A stretch of 22,959 nucleotides of DNA from a virus: positions 1 through 22,959 of IMG/VR virus record IMGVR_UViG_3300022752_000411, one strand, 5' to 3'. Below, piece by piece: positions 1 to 13,340 of this stretch. Within the stretch, counting starts at the first letter, position 1, and each line of letters opens with the position of its first letter. The notes under the pieces were generated by a model. The model ran no database searches. It saw nothing but the letters and a program-made list of their open reading frames with translations, and had not been told where the DNA came from. The position numbers were made by a program, and so were the translations under genes.

Positions 1-1298
1 GCATCCACGATATCGCCTGTGGTCACCTTGGATCGGGCGACATGGATTGCCTTAAGCACGTGCTTTGCCACGTCTTCAGTGCAACCCGTGTGACGCACAA
101 CCGCTTCGACCTCTTGTCTCATGGGCAGATATTCAAAGTGAACGACACGGGCAAAGCGGTCAATCAAAGCGCTGTTCATGGTTCGTGTACCAGCGTACCG
201 ACCTGAGTCATCGCCATTGCCCAACGTGTTATCAGCGGCAAACACCAGCACCCCGTTGGCTTTGCGGCGTACCGCACCGCCATAGGACACTGCGCTGTTG
301 GGCTCAAGAAAACCATTGAGCGGGGCAAGTTCACCAGCATCAGCGTTGGTCACCTCATCCAGCAGAATGATTGTGCTTGGCGTGGTGTAGGCCGTCAGAA
401 AATCTTTAGGCTGAAACACTGTCTCGCCATTGACCAAGCCAACCGCACCCAAATAATCCTCTGCGCTGGTGTACTTGTGGAAGTTGATCCGCACGTAATT
501 GCGTCCAGTGCGAGCGGCAAATTGTCGGGCGGTTTCGCTCTTACCCGTACCCTTTTCGCCGCCAAACCACAAGTGCTCACCCGTAGACTGAGACAACAAC
601 AATTGTTTCAGAATGGACTCAGTCCAAATGAAGTTGGGGTCAATCGCAGGGGCATTGGGGTGATTCCACACGTCAACGTTGACAATGTCACCCTTGGCAT
701 TGCGCACGTCAACACCGAAAACCTCACGCACCGACTTGACTTCAGACACGTAGACTCCAGCAATGTCAGCAACATCGGTCATCGCCTCGACAGTCGCCGC
801 CTGTTTAAACGGGGCAAAGGTATCAGCAACCGCCTTTGCGACCTGCAATTGCAGGGCATCAGGGTCAACCTCACCCCGTACCTCGCCAAGCTTTTGATTC
901 AGCGAGCGCTCAAGCTTGGTCAACTTGGTATCCATCTCCATGCTCATGTCAGCCACTGTGCTGACACGGGTCACAAGGTCATTCAATCCCTGCTTGGTGT
1001 TTATCGCAAGCTGGTGCGCTTCCAGTGCGGCATCCATCGATCGGTTGGCAGTGGCCTCCATTGCTTTGACAGCGGGGTCAGTGCTATTAGTTGAAATAAT
1101 TGTCGGCAGGGGAGTGGCGGCTTTGATCGCCGCCAAGGTGATATCGCCACGGGCAACCGCACCTGCGAGGTTTGTTGCCATTTCGGGGACGCTGGTGCTG
1201 TTCGCACCAAAACAACTCATGTGTGCGCCCCTTATAGCCGCACTGCCAAGGCGGCTAATTTCCACTGCGATTCTGCTGATTTCGGCTTTTGTAGTCAT
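1..1298 (-). CDS. CobS/MoxR-like AAA+ ATPase (C-terminus beyond left edge)
   Basis: The reading frame is open from an ATG at 1298 to the window edge (432 codons, no stop), so the C-terminus is missing. A Walker A motif, GEKGTGKSE, lies at about residues 246-255 (Lys253) and a Walker B, IILLDEV, at about 310-316 (Asp314, Glu315). Further on, a stretch with NTLGNGDDSG, a GTR turn and ALIDRF resembles the sensor/arginine-finger part of CobS-type ATPases. Residues 60-180 look helical and may be an oligomerisation or partner-binding segment. In the family, CobS is the ring ATPase of cobalt chelatase, but phage homologues are common and their role is unknown; cofactor synthesis should not be assumed. 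It is the last gene visible in the leftward block, 13 bp past the SprT-like gene, with the leader GAAAGAAACC before the ATG. The AAA+ call is firm; the CobS subgroup is from motif memory. Confidence 0.88.
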   Translation of the reverse strand, partial: MTTKAEISRIAVEISRLGSAAIRGAHMSCFGANSTSVPEMATNLAGAVARGDITLAAIKAATPLPTIISTNSTDPAVKAMEATANRSMDAALEAHQLAINTKQGLNDLVTRVSTVADMSMEMDTKLTKLERSLNQKLGEVRGEVDPDALQLQVAKAVADTFAPFKQAATVEAMTDVADIAGVYVSEVKSVREVFGVDVRNAKGDIVNVDVWNHPNAPAIDPNFIWTESILKQLLLSQSTGEHLWFGGEKGTGKSETARQFAARTGRNYVRINFHKYTSAEDYLGAVGLVNGETVFQPKDFLTAYTTPSTIILLDEVTNADAGELAPLNGFLEPNSAVSYGGAVRRKANGVLVFAADNTLGNGDDSGRYAGTRTMNSALIDRFARVVHFEYLPMRQEVEAVVRHTGCTEDVAKHVLKAIHVARSKVTTGDIVD

Positions 1299-1311
1299 GG
1301 TTTCTTTCAAG

Positions 1312-1896
1312 TTAAATGTTAAAGGTTTCGCCATCAGTCGGGCAGATCGGGAGACCCTGCGCCAACCACTTACCAGTGAGGCGGACGGTATAACCACAGG
1401 CGGGACATGAAGCTTTGATCATGCGTGTGCCCTGCACTTTGCGGTCTGAGTACGACAGTTCGCCATGCGGGTATGCACCCAACCCTGCGATCAGGTCAGC
1501 GTAAGCGGCGGCAAACTCTGACGTACCACGGGTTGACTTCCATGCATTCTTAACGGCGGGGTTGCCCGTTGGTTCAAGCAACATAGCAGTGGCGGCTTTT
1601 TGGAAGTTGACCCCGTGATTCATTGCCCCGCTGGTGCTATGGCATAACTCATGCACCAGCACTGCGAATACATCGACAGGGTCAGCGATGGTAGGGCTGA
1701 TTAGAATTTCAATGGTCTTGTCAGCGCTGTTGTCAGATGCCCAGCATTCGCCAATAGCTTTGGATCGCTTGGCATTCAAAGGAAAGCCACACGCCACACG
1801 TATGCGCTTTGGCAGGGGCTTGCCAATCAAGTCAAAGCTGGTGCGCAGTTCATTGACCCCAGCCTGTAGCCACTCTTCACGGGTTTGATAAGTCAT
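1312..1896 (-). CDS. SprT-like zinc metallopeptidase-fold protein
   Basis: 194 aa. The HELCH motif at residues 82-86, with a further His at 94, fits the HExxH metal site of SprT/Spartan-like proteins. A C-terminal Cys pair (Cys164, Cys167) and Cys185 look like the SprT zinc ribbon, but the usual fourth Cys is absent. SprT-family proteins act in DNA-protein crosslink repair or are of unknown role; which applies here cannot be told. The frame extends upstream to 1941, but the ATG at 1896 is preferred: it has the GAAAGAAAC leader shared by the other leftward genes, and the upstream part overlaps the candidate promoter/operator at 1920-1962. It lies just upstream of the AAA+ gene and probably shares its transcript. 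Confidence 0.75.
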   Translation of the reverse strand: MTYQTREEWLQAGVNELRTSFDLIGKPLPKRIRVACGFPLNAKRSKAIGECWASDNSADKTIEILISPTIADPVDVFAVLVHELCHSTSGAMNHGVNFQKAATAMLLEPTGNPAVKNAWKSTRGTSEFAAAYADLIAGLGAYPHGELSYSDRKVQGTRMIKASCPACGYTVRLTGKWLAQGLPICPTDGETFNI

Positions 1897-1919
1897 GATG
1901 TTTCTTTCGGTTTCGTTGG

Positions 1920-1962
1920 TGCTAGTGAAAGTATAACGCAAATCACTAGCAATGGTTTACAC
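1920..1962 (-). promoter_or_regulatory. Candidate leftward promoter/operator upstream of the SprT-like gene
   Basis: On the minus strand a TATACT -10-like hexamer (1930-1935) sits inside TGCGTTATACT, with CGTGTAAAC about 14 bp upstream. A perfect 9-bp inverted repeat, TGCTAGTGA (1920-1928) and TCACTAGCA (1943-1951), brackets the -10, as expected for a repressor site. The same TGCGTTATA and GTGTAAAC pair occurs at 3820-3851. No good sigma-70 -35 is present. This is inference from sequence pattern. Confidence 0.5.
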
Positions 1963-2780: not shown

Positions 2781-3419
2781 TTACCAGCCAAAGCGGTCAG
2801 CACAGATCGGGCCGATGCCACGGGCGATGGACTCAGGATCGGACAGGGTACGTGCGCACACTGAGCATTTGCCGAATTCTTTGCCATAGGCGATGGCGGC
2901 TTGCATGGGGTCACGGCTGACGCTGACAATGGATTGCTCTTGGTCAACAGTGCAGGATGCCACTGCGAAAAGCTTACCGCCGACAACCTTGCCAAGGTAG
3001 GTCTCACCCTCTTTGACATAGATCGCACCAGCGTTTTTGCCCGTGTCGGGGGCAGGGCTGAAAGTGAAAACATCCAAGCGCAGTTTCGGGCGCAAGATAC
3101 CAGCGGCTTTCGCCTTGGCAAAGGCTTGCTCCACGGGTTCAAGTGAAACAGCGGGGGCGGCGGCATGGCGGGTTGATTGAAGCTTGCGCTTGGCGAGAAT
3201 GCGTTGCACTGCACCCAATTGGTTGTCGGTCAGTCTGCCCCACTTGCGCAGGGATGAGAGCAGAGAAGCGGCAAAGTCGAATGAATCTGCGCTGTCGGTC
3301 AGCCATTGGTATTCGGCGGGGTTGGCATCGATCCACGCAAGCATGGCGGGTGACGCACCTCTGACGGGTGCATTGGCTACGGCTTGGCGGTCAGCGGCGG
3401 TGTAATTGGTGTAGTTCAT
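2781..3419 (-). CDS. DUF6011-type zinc-motif protein
   Basis: 212 aa. The C-terminus carries CSVCARTLSDPESIARGIGP followed by IC (Cys185, Cys188, Cys206). This matches the short treble-clef-like motif of DUF6011 proteins, found in many phage and actinobacterial proteins, where the Cys residues probably bind zinc. The middle (about residues 110-180) looks like a small beta domain (YLGKVVGGKLFAVASC) similar to nucleotide- or DNA-associated folds, but I cannot place it. Residues 25-80 are helical and may be a separate N-terminal domain. The start at 3419 follows the leader CCGAAAGACCAACC. In the DUF6011 family the function is unknown; a role in DNA replication or transcription would suit its place left of the origin. 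The domain name is from memory. Confidence 0.7.
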   Translation of the reverse strand: MNYTNYTAADRQAVANAPVRGASPAMLAWIDANPAEYQWLTDSADSFDFAASLLSSLRKWGRLTDNQLGAVQRILAKRKLQSTRHAAAPAVSLEPVEQAFAKAKAAGILRPKLRLDVFTFSPAPDTGKNAGAIYVKEGETYLGKVVGGKLFAVASCTVDQEQSIVSVSRDPMQAAIAYGKEFGKCSVCARTLSDPESIARGIGPICADRFGW

Positions 3420-3785: not shown

Positions 3786-3851
3786 TTGCTAGTCCTAGTG
3801 AATGTTGCGTTGATAGGACTATAACGCAAGTGTTGACGGGTTCGTTTACAC
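3786..3851 (-). promoter_or_regulatory. Candidate leftward promoter/operator at the head of the leftward block
   Basis: On the minus strand, CGTGTAAAC (plus-strand GTTTACACG from 3844) lies 15 bp before TGCGTTATAGT, giving a TATAGT -10-like hexamer at 3818-3823. The -10 overlaps a near-perfect inverted repeat: TTGCGTT at 3805-3811 with AACGCAA at 3823-3829, and inner ATAG/CTAT. A CTAGTGAA element (3795-3802) is shared with the other operator near 1920. This is the likely start of leftward transcription; no classical -35 is seen. Confidence 0.5.
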
Positions 3852-4105
3852 GATCTTAAAAAAAGTTAAAAATAGTTGAAGTGAAGACTCACTAACTTAG
3901 GTGCTTGGATTTGCGATGTATTCTTATATGTTGATGCTGGTTCTAAGAGTTTGTATACGATATGATTACTTTTACATGGAAAATAACTTAAGTACACTAA
4001 AACGCTTAAAACGGCCTACAAGGCGGGGAAAATTAAAAGGTAAGGGGTAGGTGAGGGTAAAAATAAAAATCGCTTCTAGGGGTGTTTAAATCGATCCTAG
4101 AGGCA
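3852..4105. other. Non-coding AT-rich stretch beside the DnaA-box cluster
   Basis: No gene is supported here. The segment is rich in A/T runs, including a purine-rich stretch on the plus strand around 4021-4070 (gggaaaatta, aaaataaaaa). A short inverted repeat, TCTAGG (4075-4080) and CCTAGA (4096-4101), surrounds GTTTAAAT. As an AT-rich flank to clustered DnaA boxes it is a candidate unwinding region, but this is inference. Confidence 0.4.
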
Positions 4106-4266
4106 TGTGGATAAGGTCAATACCAGTGTGGATAAGTTGTTATGCACAGCAGTGCTGAGGTTGTCCACAGAAACGCTGACTTGTTCACATTAATAACCTG
4201 TGGATAAGATAACAACCTGTGGATAACTTTGGAGTTGTCCACAAGCGAGTAATAACCTGTGGACAA
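4106..4266. other. DnaA-box cluster, candidate replication origin
   Basis: Four exact copies of TGTGGATAA (complement of the DnaA box TTATCCACA) lie at 4106-4114, 4127-4135, 4199-4207 and 4218-4226. A TTATGCACA at 4140-4148 also fits the TTWTNCACA consensus. Three one-mismatch boxes (TTGTCCACA or its complement) lie at 4161-4169, 4235-4243 and 4258-4266, and a weaker TTGTTCACA at 4181-4189. TAATAACCTGTGGA is repeated exactly at 4191-4204 and 4250-4263. The cluster sits where leftward and rightward transcription diverge. Known biology: DnaA binds such boxes at oriC. Inference: the phage recruits host DnaA here to start replication. Confidence 0.7.
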
Positions 4267-4339
4267 TGCGAACAATACTGTTTAAACTACCAGCATGGGG
4301 ATTTGTACAGGCAATAGCTGTTGATAGAGGATTATCACT

Positions 4340-4960
4340 ATGCAAAAGATATCAAAAGAAGAGTATTTGAAGGCGCTTGAGGTTGCCGATCAAAATGATG
4401 ATGATGATCAAATTGATAATGATGATGGGCTGGGCAATATCAGCGAAGCGGAGCGGTTGGCGGCTCATGCAGATGCACCAATACTAAGGGCAGATGGTAA
4501 GCCACACGGGTCAGAGTCATACACAAGGGTAAGAGCGCTATCAGTAAGTCAACTCGCATTCGCACAGGGGCTGATACAAGGGAAGACGTACAAACAGAGT
4601 TATAAGGATGCCTACCCAAATGCACAAGGCACTGACGCAAGTATCACCACAAGCGCTTACAGACTCAGCAGAGACCCACGCATTGCAGAGATGGTGAGGG
4701 ATGCACTGGAAGAGACAGCAGAGCACCTTGCGGAGGATCGAGCGGCAACTCAAAGGTATGTGTTGCGGCAGTTGGTTGCACATAGTAAGACAGCTAAACA
4801 AGAGGGCACAAAACTAAAAGCACTTGAACTACTTGGTAAAAGCACAGGGTTGTTCATCGATAAAGCAGAGGCTGACGCAAAGCCTGTGAGCGCAGAGCAG
4901 TTGAAGCGGGAGTTGGGAGTGCACCTCCGACTGCTGAAGAGTGACAAGCGCAGTGCGTAG
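4340..4960 (+). CDS. Terminase small subunit candidate
   Basis: 206 aa. An acidic N-terminus (runs of Asp at about 20-30) is followed by a helix-turn-helix-like stretch at about 67-115 (QLAFAQGLIQGKTYKQSYKD, then a second helix ending RLSRDPRI). This resembles DNA-binding N-domains of phage small terminases, followed by a helical segment (about 115-175) suitable for ring assembly. Small terminases recognise the viral DNA and regulate cutting by the large subunit. The gene is the first rightward ORF after the origin region and lies about 540 bp before the large terminase, separated by a C-rich gap and a LexA-like gene. ATG at 4340 with AGAGG upstream. The call rests on the pattern and position; identity with a named family is not shown. 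Confidence 0.7.
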   Translation: MQKISKEEYLKALEVADQNDDDDQIDNDDGLGNISEAERLAAHADAPILRADGKPHGSESYTRVRALSVSQLAFAQGLIQGKTYKQSYKDAYPNAQGTDASITTSAYRLSRDPRIAEMVRDALEETAEHLAEDRAATQRYVLRQLVAHSKTAKQEGTKLKALELLGKSTGLFIDKAEADAKPVSAEQLKRELGVHLRLLKSDKRSA

Positions 4961-5274: not shown

Positions 5275-5505
5275 ATGACCCCTCGCAGACAACTCGTTCT
5301 AGACTTCATCAAGGCTTACATTCGTATCCACGGCATAGCGCCGTCTTACGAAGTTATTGCCAAGGGTCTTGGTATGAAGTCAAAGGCGAATATCCACAGG
5401 ATCATCCATAGATTGCAAGCTGACGGATTCCTTACAACTAAGCCACACAAGTTTCATTCCATAAAGATTGTGGATCGCAGTGTTAAAGAAATGGCTTCCC
5501 TGTGA
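5275..5505 (+). CDS. LexA-type winged-helix DNA-binding protein (no peptidase domain)
   Basis: 76 aa covering just a LexA N-terminal DNA-binding domain. Helix 1 is MTPRRQLVLDFIKAYI, then HGIAPSYEVIAKGLGMKS (helix 2 and turn), the recognition helix at about 36-50 (KANIHRIIHRLQADGFL), and a short wing. It ends at 76 residues, whereas full LexA is about 200 and has a self-cleaving S24 peptidase domain; that domain is absent, so RecA-triggered cleavage is not expected. Its TGA overlaps the large-terminase GTG by 4 bp (GTGA), suggesting translational coupling. Possible jobs are local repressor, late-gene regulator or a DNA-recognition accessory to packaging. No strong Shine-Dalgarno precedes the ATG. 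Domain assignment is firm, role open. Confidence 0.85.
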   Translation: MTPRRQLVLDFIKAYIRIHGIAPSYEVIAKGLGMKSKANIHRIIHRLQADGFLTTKPHKFHSIKIVDRSVKEMASL

Positions 5506-7013
5506 CCTTGCTGACCAAGTCAGAAATTGGAGAGTATCTGTCCATAGTGGACACATTGCCTGAAGCTGAGAGAAACAAGGTTTACAGGTTATTGGAGTTG
5601 GACAGGGTTGAAAGATGTCGGGAGAGCTACCTTTACTTCGTCACTCAGATGTGGCCCGGGTTTATTTCGGGTAAACACCACCAGATCATGGCAGATGCCT
5701 TTGAACGTGTTGCGTCGGGTCAGCTTAAGCGTCTTATCATTAACATGCCTCCTCGTCATACAAAGTCAGAGTTTGCGTCATACCTGTTGCCATCATGGTT
5801 TCTTGGTAAATACCCGCAGAAAAAGATCATTCAGACTGCCCACACCGCAGAATTAGCTGTTGGATTTGGACGCAAGGTCAGGAATCTTGTGTCATCAGAA
5901 GCGTATTCAAAGGTGTTTGACACTAAGCTGTCCTCGGATTCAAAGGCCGCAGGACGGTGGAACACTGACGCAGGTGGAGATTACTTCGCTATTGGTGTTG
6001 GTGGAGCCGTTACCGGTAAAGGTGCAGATGTATTGATCATTGATGATCCTCATTCTGAGCAAGAGGCAAGACAAAACAACCCCGCAGTGTTTGATAGTGT
6101 GTATGAGTGGTACACATCTGGCCCTCGCCAGCGTTTACAACCCGGTGGATCTATCATTATTGTGATGACCCGGTGGTCTAAGCGGGATCTGACCGGGCAA
6201 ATCCTCAAGAATTCAGAAAAAGAAGGCGTAAACGACTGGGAAGTGATTGAATTTCCTGCGATTTTGCCGTCAGGAACCCCTTTATGGCCCAATTTCTGGA
6301 AAAAAGAAGAGCTTGAAGCCATTAAGGCTGAGATTCCTTCAGCTAAATGGGAAGCGCAGTACCAACAAAACCCCACCGGCAACGAAAGTGCCATCATCAA
6401 GCGGGATATGTGGAGGATTTGGGACAAAGAGACTCCCCCTTCCTGTGATTATTTGATCCAAAGCTGGGATACTGCCTTTGAGAAGAATAACCGCGCAGAT
6501 TATTCAGCCTGCACCACGTGGGGAGTGTTTCAACATCCCGATACGCAGGGCAATTTAAAGCCCAACATCATCGTCTTGGATTCGTTTAAACAGCGGATGG
6601 AGTTCCCAGAGCTAAAACAGAAAGCTATGGAGATGTGGAAGGAATGGAACCCAGACACATTGATCATTGAGAAGAAGGCAGCAGGCGCTCCTTTGATATA
6701 TGAGCTTCGGATGATGGGCATTCCCTTACAAGAGTTCACACCAAGCAAAGGAAACGATAAGATAGCGCGTGTAAACGCAATATCAGACCTGTTTGCATCT
6801 GGCGTGGTCTGGTGTCCAGAAACCCGCTGGGCTGATGAGCTAATGGAAGAGCTCGCAGCTTTCCCCTATGGCGACAACGATGACCTTGTTGACTCAACAA
6901 GTCAGGCATTGATTCGATACCGGCAGGGCGGGTTCATTGGAATAGATTCAGATGAGCAGGACGAAGTTAAGTACTTCAAAGGCCGCAGAACCGAACGGTA
7001 TTACACAGTTTAA
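5502..7013 (+). CDS. terL: Terminase large subunit
   Basis: 503 aa, the usual size. The N-terminal ATPase has a Walker A variant, PPRHTKSE (83-90), and a Walker B, LIIDDPH (178-184, Asp181/Asp182), with the coupling motif IVMTRW near 220-225. The C-terminal RNase H-like nuclease shows Asp323 in SWDTA, Glu390 in LIIEKK and an Asp-rich GDNDDLVD (457-464). The enzyme drives DNA into the procapsid and cuts it. The start is GTG at 5502, overlapping the LexA-like gene's stop; no good Shine-Dalgarno is seen, consistent with coupled translation. The portal gene follows after 9 bp. All key residues are intact. Confidence 0.97.
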   Translation: MTLLTKSEIGEYLSIVDTLPEAERNKVYRLLELDRVERCRESYLYFVTQMWPGFISGKHHQIMADAFERVASGQLKRLIINMPPRHTKSEFASYLLPSWFLGKYPQKKIIQTAHTAELAVGFGRKVRNLVSSEAYSKVFDTKLSSDSKAAGRWNTDAGGDYFAIGVGGAVTGKGADVLIIDDPHSEQEARQNNPAVFDSVYEWYTSGPRQRLQPGGSIIIVMTRWSKRDLTGQILKNSEKEGVNDWEVIEFPAILPSGTPLWPNFWKKEELEAIKAEIPSAKWEAQYQQNPTGNESAIIKRDMWRIWDKETPPSCDYLIQSWDTAFEKNNRADYSACTTWGVFQHPDTQGNLKPNIIVLDSFKQRMEFPELKQKAMEMWKEWNPDTLIIEKKAAGAPLIYELRMMGIPLQEFTPSKGNDKIARVNAISDLFASGVVWCPETRWADELMEELAAFPYGDNDDLVDSTSQALIRYRQGGFIGIDSDEQDEVKYFKGRRTERYYTV

Positions 7014-7022
7014 GGATTAAAA

Positions 7023-9518
7023 ATGGCAACAAGTTCAATGGATAAAGGTTTGTACGCAGCTCCTCTGGGGCTTGAGCAAGATATGGGGGCTCCTATTGAG
7101 ATTGAGATTGAGGATCCCAAGGCGGTGCATATTGGAATTGGAGATCTCCAAATTGATATGGAGCCACAAGAAGAAACATCAGAGGATTTTGATGTCAACC
7201 TTGCGGAGTACATGGACAACTCCGAGCTTGGAAGCCTGTCATCAGATTTGATTGATGATTTTGAAAAGGATACTCGCGACCGCAGAGATTGGATTCAAAC
7301 CTACGTCGAGGGCTTAAAGCTTCTAGGTCTGCGCTATGAAGATAGGACAGAACCTTGGCAGGGAGCCTGCGGTGTATTCCACCCAATGCTGACCGAGTCT
7401 GTTGTCAGGTTCCAGTCAGAAGGTATTACAGAGACATTCCCAGCTATGGGGCCTGTCAAGACAAAGATTATCGGCAAAGAAACTCCAGAGACTGAAGAAG
7501 CTGCGCAGAGAGTTCAGGAAGACATGAACTATCAGTTGACGGAAGTGATGACTGAGTATCGCCCGGAGCATGAAAAACTGCTGTGGTCTCTGCCAATCAC
7601 CGGATCAGCCTTCAAAAAGGTCTATTACGACCCATCAAAAGGCCGCCAAATGGCTGTGTTCATCCCCGCAGAGGACTTAGTTGTCCCTTATGGCGCAAGG
7701 GATATTGAGTCTTCAGAGCGTGTTACCCACGTAATGCGTAAGACCAAAAATGAGGTTTTGAAGCTTCAGGAGTCGGGTTTCTATCTAGACACAGATTTAG
7801 GTGACCCAAGCTACGAGCTTGATGATGTTGAGAAACAAAAGTCAGAAGAAAGCGGAATGTCTGCTATTCAAGATGATCGCTATCGCATTCTTGAAATGCA
7901 CGTAGACATTGATTTAAAAGGCTTTGAGCATAAAAACGACAAGGGTGAGAAGACAGGTATCGCTCTTCCCTACGTCGTAACGGTTGAAAAACAATCAGGT
8001 GAAATTCTTTCAATAAGGAGAAATTGGTATGAAGGAGATGAACTTCACATCAAGCGACAGCACTTCGTCCACTACCAATACATCCCCGGTGATGGATTCT
8101 ATGGTTATGGTCTTATCCACCTTATCGGGGGATATGCGAAGTCAGCTACGATGCTCATTCGACAGCTCGTTGATGCTGGGACGTTATCTAACTTACCCGG
8201 AGGTCTTAAATCTCGCGGCCTGCGCATTAAGGGGGACGACACCCCCATCCAGCCCGGAGAATTCAGGGACGTAGATGTGCCTTCCGGAAGCATCCGTGAC
8301 AACATCTTACCGCTGCCTTACAAAGAACCAAGTCAGGTTCTGTTTGCTTTATTCCAGAATATCGTTGAAGAAGGCCGCGCTTTTGCCAACGGCGGGGACA
8401 TGAATGTTTCCGATATGTCTGCGCAGGCTCCTGTAGGCACAACATTGGCAATTCTGGAGAGAACCTTAAAGGTTATGGGAGCAGTTCAGTCCCGTATGCA
8501 TTTCTCCATGAAGCAAGAATTCAAGCTTTTGAAGGTGATCATTGCCGACTATGCGCCTGAAGATTATGACTACGAGCCGCAAGAGGGTAGCCGCACCGCC
8601 CGCAGATCAGATTACGACAGCACGGACGTTATCCCCGTCAGCGACCCCAATGCATCCACAATGGCGCAGAAGATTGTCCAATATCAGGCAGTCCTTCAGT
8701 TGGCTCAAGGTGCGCCACAGTTGTATGACTTACCCCTGCTGCACCGCCAAATGATTGAGGTTCTTGGTGTAAAGAATGCTAATAAGCTGGTCAAGACAGA
8801 AGAGGATCAAGTTCCTACTGACCCGATTCAGGAAAATCAAAATGTTCTGACGGGCAAGTCAGTAAAGGCTTTTGTGGAACAAAACCACCAAGCGCACATT
8901 CAGATTCACATGATGGCAATCCAAGACCCTAAGATTGCCCAAATCATTGCTCAAAACCCGCAAGCGCAAATGATTCAAGCCGCAATGCTTGCCCATATCA
9001 ATGAACATACTGGGTTTCAGTACAGACTTGAGATTGAAAAGCGCATGGGCATGTCACTGCCAAGCGAAGAGCAATCCAAGCAAGTTCCTCCAGAAATGGC
9101 AGATCACCTCGCCATCATGGCGGCGCAAGCAGCCAAACAACTGTTTCAACAAAACAGCCAAGAGGCTCAACAGCAACAAGCTCAGCAACAACTGCAAGAT
9201 CCTATTGTTCAGATGCAAATGCAAGAACTTCAGATCAAGCAAGGCGAATTGCAGCTTAAACAGCAAAAACAACAGATTGACGCGGCAGCCAAGGCTGATC
9301 AGATCCGCGTTGAGCAGGCTCGTATTGAGGCGCAAAAAGAAATCGCCGCTATGCAAGTATCGGCAAAAGCTGCTGAGAGCAAAGATCGTTTAAACAAACA
9401 AATGGAATTAGATGGATCACGCTTAGGTGTGGACATCGCCAAACACCGATCCCAAATGTCGGTGCAAGCCGCGCTAAGAAATGCGCAACAACTTCCTAAC
9501 AGACCCAAGAAAGGTTAA
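7023..9518 (+). CDS. Portal protein, P22/SU10-like
   Basis: 831 aa, larger than many portals, in the size class of P22-type proteins. It has an acidic N-terminus (about 24-70) and a central region typical of podovirus portals, with FVHYQYIPGDGFYGYGLIHL (about 348-367), a Gly-rich loop SNLPGGLKSRGL, and APVGTTLAILER (469-480). A long Gln-rich helix at about 700-800 corresponds in position to the P22 barrel/crown. Twelve copies form the ring through which DNA enters and leaves the head. It sits 9 bp after terL with AAGGA before the ATG, and overlaps nothing downstream (2-bp gap). Family placement is by pattern and context, which are strong together. Confidence 0.92.
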   Translation: MATSSMDKGLYAAPLGLEQDMGAPIEIEIEDPKAVHIGIGDLQIDMEPQEETSEDFDVNLAEYMDNSELGSLSSDLIDDFEKDTRDRRDWIQTYVEGLKLLGLRYEDRTEPWQGACGVFHPMLTESVVRFQSEGITETFPAMGPVKTKIIGKETPETEEAAQRVQEDMNYQLTEVMTEYRPEHEKLLWSLPITGSAFKKVYYDPSKGRQMAVFIPAEDLVVPYGARDIESSERVTHVMRKTKNEVLKLQESGFYLDTDLGDPSYELDDVEKQKSEESGMSAIQDDRYRILEMHVDIDLKGFEHKNDKGEKTGIALPYVVTVEKQSGEILSIRRNWYEGDELHIKRQHFVHYQYIPGDGFYGYGLIHLIGGYAKSATMLIRQLVDAGTLSNLPGGLKSRGLRIKGDDTPIQPGEFRDVDVPSGSIRDNILPLPYKEPSQVLFALFQNIVEEGRAFANGGDMNVSDMSAQAPVGTTLAILERTLKVMGAVQSRMHFSMKQEFKLLKVIIADYAPEDYDYEPQEGSRTARRSDYDSTDVIPVSDPNASTMAQKIVQYQAVLQLAQGAPQLYDLPLLHRQMIEVLGVKNANKLVKTEEDQVPTDPIQENQNVLTGKSVKAFVEQNHQAHIQIHMMAIQDPKIAQIIAQNPQAQMIQAAMLAHINEHTGFQYRLEIEKRMGMSLPSEEQSKQVPPEMADHLAIMAAQAAKQLFQQNSQEAQQQQAQQQLQDPIVQMQMQELQIKQGELQLKQQKQQIDAAAKADQIRVEQARIEAQKEIAAMQVSAKAAESKDRLNKQMELDGSRLGVDIAKHRSQMSVQAALRNAQQLPNRPKKG

Positions 9519-12428: not shown

Positions 12429-13340
12429 ATGGCTATTTCACGTGCACAACTACTTAAAGAGTTGCTCCCCGGCTTGAATGCCTTGTTTGGTATGGAGTAC
12501 GCTCGTTACGGTGAAGAACATAAAGAAATTTATGAAACCGAAACTTCAGAGCGTTCTTTTGAAGAAGAAACCAAACTGTCTGGCTTCTCAGCCGCACCTG
12601 TCAAAAACGAAGGCTCTGCCATCGCTTATGACAATGCTCAAGAGGCATGGACTACTCGCTACAACCACGAAACCATTGCTTTGGGTTTCTCAATCACTGA
12701 AGAAGCGATTGAAGATAACTTGTACGACAGCTTGTCTGCTCGTTACACCAAAGGTCTGGCTCGTGCTATGGCTTACACCAAGCAGGTTAAAGCTGCTGCT
12801 ACTCTCAACAACGGTTTCTCTGCCGCTTATGTCGGTGGCGACGGTGTTGCTTTGTTTAGCACTGCTCACCCCTTGGTTTCTGGTGGAACCAACTCCAACC
12901 GTCCTGCCACTGCTGCTGACTTGAATGAAACTTCGTTGGAAAACGCTGTTATTCAGATCGCTGCATGGACAGACGAGCGTGGTTTGTTGATCGCCGCCAA
13001 GCCCAAGAAGCTGATTGTTCCCCCTGCATTGCAGTTCGTGGCTACCCGCCTGTTGGAAACCAACCTCCGTGTTGGCACTGCTGACAACGACATCAACGCA
13101 TTGAAGAACAACGGCTCTATCCCCGAAGGCTACACCATTAACCATTACCTGACCGACACAAACGGCTGGTATTTGACTACTGATGTACCTAACGGTTTGA
13201 AGCATTTCGTTCGTTCACCCCTTGCCAACAGCATGGACGGTGACTTTGATACCGGCAACGTCCGTTACAAAGCCCGCGAGCGTTATAGCTTTGGTTGGTC
13301 TGATCCATTGGGAATTTATGGCTCCCCCGGTTCGTCTTAA
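12429..13340 (+). CDS. Major capsid protein (Mu gpT-like, HK97 fold)
   Basis: 303 aa. The sequence follows the pattern of Mu-like head subunits: an N-terminal helix (SRAQLLKELLPGLNALFG), an acidic extended-loop region (about 35-75, ending in DNAQEAWTTRYNHETIALGF), the A-domain marker LFSTAHPLVSGGTNSN (142-157), KPKKLIVPPAL (191-201), and a C-terminal strand DTGNVRYKARERYSFGW. These proteins form the icosahedral shell. AAGGAG lies upstream. A perfect rho-independent terminator follows the stop, ending the head operon. No cleavage site or delta domain is obvious; a separate scaffold is present, in agreement. Confidence 0.9.
   Translation: MAISRAQLLKELLPGLNALFGMEYARYGEEHKEIYETETSERSFEEETKLSGFSAAPVKNEGSAIAYDNAQEAWTTRYNHETIALGFSITEEAIEDNLYDSLSARYTKGLARAMAYTKQVKAAATLNNGFSAAYVGGDGVALFSTAHPLVSGGTNSNRPATAADLNETSLENAVIQIAAWTDERGLLIAAKPKKLIVPPALQFVATRLLETNLRVGTADNDINALKNNGSIPEGYTINHYLTDTNGWYLTTDVPNGLKHFVRSPLANSMDGDFDTGNVRYKARERYSFGWSDPLGIYGSPGSS

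Follow-up and report, generated by a model that had tools for sequence, protein, structure and literature searches.

A conserved array of predicted DnaA boxes and a LexA-type site at the probable late promoter of a tailed-phage group

The window, i.e. the whole stretch of DNA analysed here, is a 22,959-bp virus record and represents a fragment of a genome that measures about 61-65 kb in relatives. Its genes are arranged in two opposing directions. The leftward genes, which end at 3419/3641, encode a DUF6011 protein, an SprT-like protein and a MoxR-type AAA ATPase. The rightward genes start at 4340 with the terminase small subunit (TerS, 4340..4960, PHROG 51, 3.8e-11), which is followed by a 76-aa protein with a LexA DNA-binding domain (5275..5505, PF01726), the terminase large subunit (TerL, 5502..7013, PHROG 38, 4.5e-105), the portal protein (7023..9518, PHROG 1216, 4.2e-27), a GroES-like protein (9657), the major capsid protein (12429..13340, PHROG 371 and PF25209) and an SU10-type adaptor (19079). 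TerS is the first gene of a late operon that runs through the 76-aa protein, TerL and portal to the capsid gene. The SprT-like and MoxR-type genes form a leftward operon (window 3-1941; 4993-8708 in the relative L089), and in the relative G001 this operon is followed by a gene for a CobT-like VWA protein, giving a phage-borne MoxR-VWA pair.

Megablast finds no close relatives of the window among named phages. The nearest named relatives are 023Pt_psg01, HTVC023P, HTVC027P and DSL-LC04, whose TerL proteins are 49-58% identical and whose genomes measure 58-62 kb. They share with the window a related TerL and portal and the order of the GroES-like and capsid genes, but differ from its clade in encoding their own DNA polymerase A, in lacking the LexA-domain gene and in lacking the array described below (34-41 kb of each was read). 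The phage family that carries the array is large and mostly unisolated. The host search returned a single match, the Burkholderiales-binned MAG contig CAIKVH010000110.1, which is a relative with both DnaA boxes and a LexA-type site; it is a weak hint of the host, as the contig may be mis-binned.

The intergenic region between the two gene directions harbors nine matches to the pattern TT[AG]TNCACA within 161 bp (4106-4266), and the pattern is absent from the rest of the window. Reading from left to right, TTATCCACA is found at 4106-4114 and 4127-4135 (both minus strand), TTATGCACA at 4140-4148 (plus), TTGTCCACA at 4161-4169 (plus), TTGTTCACA at 4181-4189 (plus), TTATCCACA again at 4199-4207 and 4218-4226 (both minus), and TTGTCCACA at 4235-4243 (plus) and 4258-4266 (minus). 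Additionally, an exact 14-bp direct repeat, TAATAACCTGTGGA, starts at 4191 and at 4250. The sequence-only reading had reported nine DnaA-like boxes on both strands, exact 14-bp repeats and a position at the divergence of transcription, and all three hold in the pattern scan and the gene map. When up to one mismatch is allowed, the window contains 13 copies of TTATCCACA, where 5.0 are expected, and no shuffle reached this count; eight of these sites fall into the array, where about 0.035 are expected, and the other five are scattered singles. Chance is ruled out as the source of the array by the shuffles together with motif-free 9-mer counts, and coding constraint by its intergenic position. 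An RNA element was rejected as well, as no Rfam match and no tRNA were found.

The conservation of the array was followed through a TerL search of IMG/VR, which gave hundreds of relatives, of which 80 were kept. Clustering of TerL at 93% identity left 18 groups with enough upstream sequence, and boxes are present upstream of TerL in all of them, with at least two strict boxes in 18 and at least three in 15. Among the loci with at least 2 kb of upstream sequence, 40 of 43 have three or more boxes in the 2.5 kb preceding TerL, as compared to a density of 0.07 boxes per 2.5 kb away from this region. With no motif assumed, the commonest 9-mer at the locus is TTATCCACA itself, which is found in 45/45 loci (0.25 expected). 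The one-letter variants that are kept are A3>G, C5>G, C5>T, C5>A, C6>A and T1>N, and positions 2, 4 and 8 are almost fixed. The sequence specificity of DnaA is well established, and the substitution profile is the one expected of this protein, which supports the boxes as DnaA sites. Conservation and substitution profile together strongly support their prediction as sites for host DnaA. A phage-encoded DnaA is ruled out as the ligand by the absence of a Bac_DnaA_C domain from 13 records, and contamination of the clade with a host oriC by the terminase, portal and capsid genes beside the array.

The number, order and spacing of the boxes vary among the TerL groups, some of which are down to two or three, so that the array as such persists although its layout keeps changing. 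Two conserved blocks to the left of the array (window 4020-4105), TAAGGGGTAGG and TTTAAATCGATCCTAG, recur in most relatives. Extra DnaA boxes nearer to TerL, in or just before the LexA-domain gene, are seen in L048 (-97 and -30 relative to TerL), in L038 (-309 and -298) and in L030 and L032 (-100 in both).

In the alignment of relatives the array leads into a sigma-70-type promoter. The probable -10 element of the window (GACAAT, followed by a conserved TGCGAAC, 4262..4273, plus strand) sits within the last DnaA box. Its -35 element is weak, and a generic promoter scan did not single out the site at 4262-4273; the relative L018 shows TTGACA, a 17-bp spacer, GATAAT and then GCGAAC at the same place. 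ATGCGAACA is found in 28 of 45 loci, with 0.25 expected. A DnaA box overlaps the promoter core, taken as the 45 bp before the start site, in all 16 groups in which the promoter motif was found. The median distance from the last box to the motif is 11 bp, a figure that is biased because the search for the motif was made in the vicinity of that box. The array thus overlaps the predicted late promoter of the TerS-capsid operon, a feature that the sequence-only reading had missed.

The overlap bears on the suggestion that the array is a decoy, which would soak up host DnaA and thereby halt host initiation or alter the DnaA regulon with no effect on the phage promoter. E. coli contains about 200 DnaA monomers per origin (PMC5835720), and simple arithmetic suggests that this pool could be bound once some tens of phage genomes, with nine boxes apiece, are present. 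A decoy would be free in its location and would not need to overlap a promoter, yet a box does so wherever the promoter was found, and arrays in other phages favour the region upstream of TerL. We regard a decoy as improbable. Titration of host DnaA, which had been proposed as an alternative to DnaA-dependent initiation, is to be expected of such an array without necessarily being what it is for.

Directly downstream of the predicted -10 element lies a LexA-type SOS box, TACTGTTTAAACTACCAGCA (4276..4295, plus strand), with the CTG-N10-CAG core at 4278-4293. Scored with a matrix of E. coli LexA sites, it reaches 18.4 and is the best site of the window, the next one scoring 10.8 and real sites 13.6-26.7. 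In 38 of 47 loci the LexA-type site at the promoter outscores all others of the locus, and its offset from the promoter is fixed in 12 of the 16 groups with a promoter motif. Several relatives carry two LexA-type sites that are 18 bp apart. The sequence-only reading had passed over this box as well, and likewise the LexA DNA-binding domain that the operon encodes.

The 76-aa protein encoded in the same operon was assigned to the LexA DNA-binding domain by profile (PF01726, 8.9e-11, over the curated cut-off), and its length leaves no space for a peptidase domain. Its gene is present in 72/72 relatives with enough sequence and in 11 of 13 long clade records, the remaining two apparently being without that region, and in none of five named relatives. 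In nearly all relatives it overlaps the TerL start by 4 bp (distance -227). Judged by these gene positions, the pairing of the putative regulator with the terminase is unusually fixed. The recognition helix, KSKANIHRI, is unlike that of E. coli-type LexA in the alignment, and either the CTG-N10-CAG site or the conserved TGCGAAC may be the target of the protein.

Both parts of this arrangement have counterparts in known systems. In E. coli, uvrB, recN and dinJ are co-repressed by DnaA and LexA (PMC6015884). These promoters resemble that of the window in combining DnaA boxes with a LexA box in front of a single operon, and the DnaA box over the promoter core is shared by all 16 groups with a recognisable motif. 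They differ in that they drive host repair genes and have fewer consensus boxes, whereas the window places up to nine in front of a phage late operon, where repression is predicted. In phage GIL01 the late promoter P3 has LexA boxes in tandem, and its activator, gp6, is a truncated LexA homologue (PMC6182141). A LexA-type box at the late promoter, found in the window and in its relatives, and a phage-encoded LexA DNA-binding domain that lacks the peptidase domain are common to both. GIL01, however, is a tectivirus-like temperate Bacillus phage with gp6 in its early region, whereas the gene described here lies within the late operon of a tailed phage, and the DnaA boxes are additional to what is found at the GIL01 late promoter. 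A tblastn search of phage records with the 76-aa protein did not recover GIL01. A search of the open literature brought up no description of DnaA-box arrays at late promoters of tailed phages; one Pseudomonas phage paper shows a putative origin with DnaA boxes predicted by software (PMC11512268).

The reading we favour, at a probability of slightly under one half, is that the array is part of a late-promoter switch that senses host DnaA and LexA and that may double as an origin. Host DnaA would bind the array as the control region of the promoter for TerS, the LexA-like protein, TerL, portal and capsid. Early in infection, the promoter core would be occluded by DnaA bound to the boxes over the -35 and -10 elements, and host LexA, possibly together with the phage 76-aa protein, would occupy the SOS box at the start site, so that both proteins would jointly hold the late genes off. 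Subsequently, phage copies with many boxes each would accumulate and spread the free DnaA thinner, and replication or recombination intermediates could trigger the cleavage of LexA. The late operon would then open, gated by copy number and damage signalling, and the same site may also act as an origin. From the sequence features we infer the binding of DnaA and LexA, the repression, the effect of copy number and the role of the 76-aa protein. Counted against this switch are that nine boxes over 161 bp exceed the needs of simple repression, that the -35 element of the window is weak and that a clade without a polymerase fits an origin equally well. Conserved predicted sites for a host replication initiator and a damage repressor, combined on a late promoter, offer a directly testable answer to how phages without a recognisable polymerase decide when to stop replicating and begin packaging. 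The arrangement suggests that two host proteins serve these phages as cues for the timing of the late genes, or for the initiation of DNA replication.

An origin is the main competitor of the late-promoter switch and is possible, though ranked after it; the two functions may coexist. DnaA would oligomerise on the array and open the nearby DNA, after which the TOPRIM-DnaB primase-helicase of the phage and the host replicative polymerase would assemble. As in oriC-type origins, the window has a cluster of several consensus DnaA boxes on both strands of a short intergenic region. Boxes of equal density over the whole genome, named in the sequence-only reading as evidence against an origin, were not found: the boxes of long relatives are gathered mainly in a single cluster. 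The gene content points in the same direction. G001 is probably complete, because it has an exact 123-bp terminal repeat at its ends, and when its early region and most of its remaining proteins were searched for known families, the matches included a TOPRIM-DnaB primase-helicase, a Sak annealing protein, an exonuclease and RusA, with neither a DNA polymerase nor a DnaA DNA-binding domain among them. Polymerase A is also absent from 12 further long clade records, whereas the four named relatives encode polymerase A and lack the array. This association of the array with a missing polymerase fits a reliance on the host replisome, as seen in one clade against few relatives. If the array is an origin instead, it would be a clear case of a tailed-phage group that is started by host DnaA.

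The skew and the base composition across relatives are compatible with an origin yet lend it no support. In eight of nine long genomes the third-position GC skew depends on the gene strand (regression), and the side relative to the array has no consistent effect across the nine; a weak skew, in a phage, would be compatible with an origin. The cumulative skew minima are scattered among these genomes. G001 has a minimum at 3.3 kb from the array, which is explained by gene strand in the third-position regression, and skew was therefore rejected as proof of an origin. A skew minimum at the locus, put forward earlier as a check, is unsupported after gene strand is accounted for. An AT-rich flank had also been described. 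It exists in the window, where A+T content reaches a local maximum of 70-72% at 3840..4020 and the least stable 60 bp lie at 3942-4001, as a possible unwinding element in this record only, which speaks for an origin. Near the array of relatives, A+T content rises only slightly (53-59% versus 49.5% overall), and no AT-rich element around the array is clearly conserved across them. The array differs from oriC-type origins in that an unwinding element is not clearly conserved and that the skew shows no change beyond that of gene strand. Of the host-style origin proposed earlier, the box cluster stands, and it draws no support from the skew or from a conserved unwinding element. A bipartite origin with an AT-rich spacer was considered for L071, L072, L073, L077 and L079 and rejected, as the spacers have just 49-55% A+T. 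Further points against an origin are that some groups have only two or three boxes and that the array is tied to a promoter and not to replication genes, the arrays of other lineages likewise lying beside terminase genes.

These other lineages were found by a scan of IMG/VR for three exact boxes in the same orientation within about 90 bp, which returned at least 120 contigs. Of 79 newly fetched array contigs, eight belong to the clade and 71 lie outside it. TerL was found in 31 of the 71, and the array is upstream of it in 30. It lies within 2 kb of TerL in 24 of the 31, as compared to a mean of 7.7 and a maximum of 18 under random placement (5000 trials); the TerL proteins fall into about nine lineages at 40% identity, one of which holds 22 loci, so that the counts are not independent. 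Terminases predominate among the gene families beside these arrays, and some replication and lysis genes are also found. Dense arrays are thus shared by many other viral contigs, where they lie mostly upstream of the terminase if one is in reach, and are not peculiar to this phage. Their late-side preference, as judged from gene order, argues for control of a promoter, or for packaging, rather than for a generic origin.

Packaging would require that DnaA bends or marks the DNA beside terS for the initiation of packaging, in the way that IHF acts at lambda cosB. The array is placed suitably, directly upstream of terS in the window and upstream of TerL in other phages. Long contigs, however, end away from the array, which lies at 1.7 to 47 kb in the records, so that there is no sign of fixed ends and a fixed packaging end at the array was rejected; the sigma-70 promoter and the LexA box would also need a separate explanation. 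We consider this role very improbable, even more so than that of a decoy.

The preference for the terminase-upstream region makes the question of late timing a general one. Host DnaA could serve as a copy-number sensor: several unrelated lineages would have put arrays at the terminase-upstream promoter, and titration by the rising number of phage copies would open the packaging and capsid genes. In the clade of the window, LexA and an uncleavable LexA domain of the phage would be part of the same gate. This extension of the late-promoter switch is tentative and rather unlikely. A LexA box beside non-clade arrays was seen in L236 and L290 only, and its absence from most other lineages means that the DnaA and LexA parts need not act together. 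Among the unrelated viral contigs with dense arrays (L215-L293, e.g. L220, L245, L247, L248, L252, L281 and L293), several carry 9-12 boxes.
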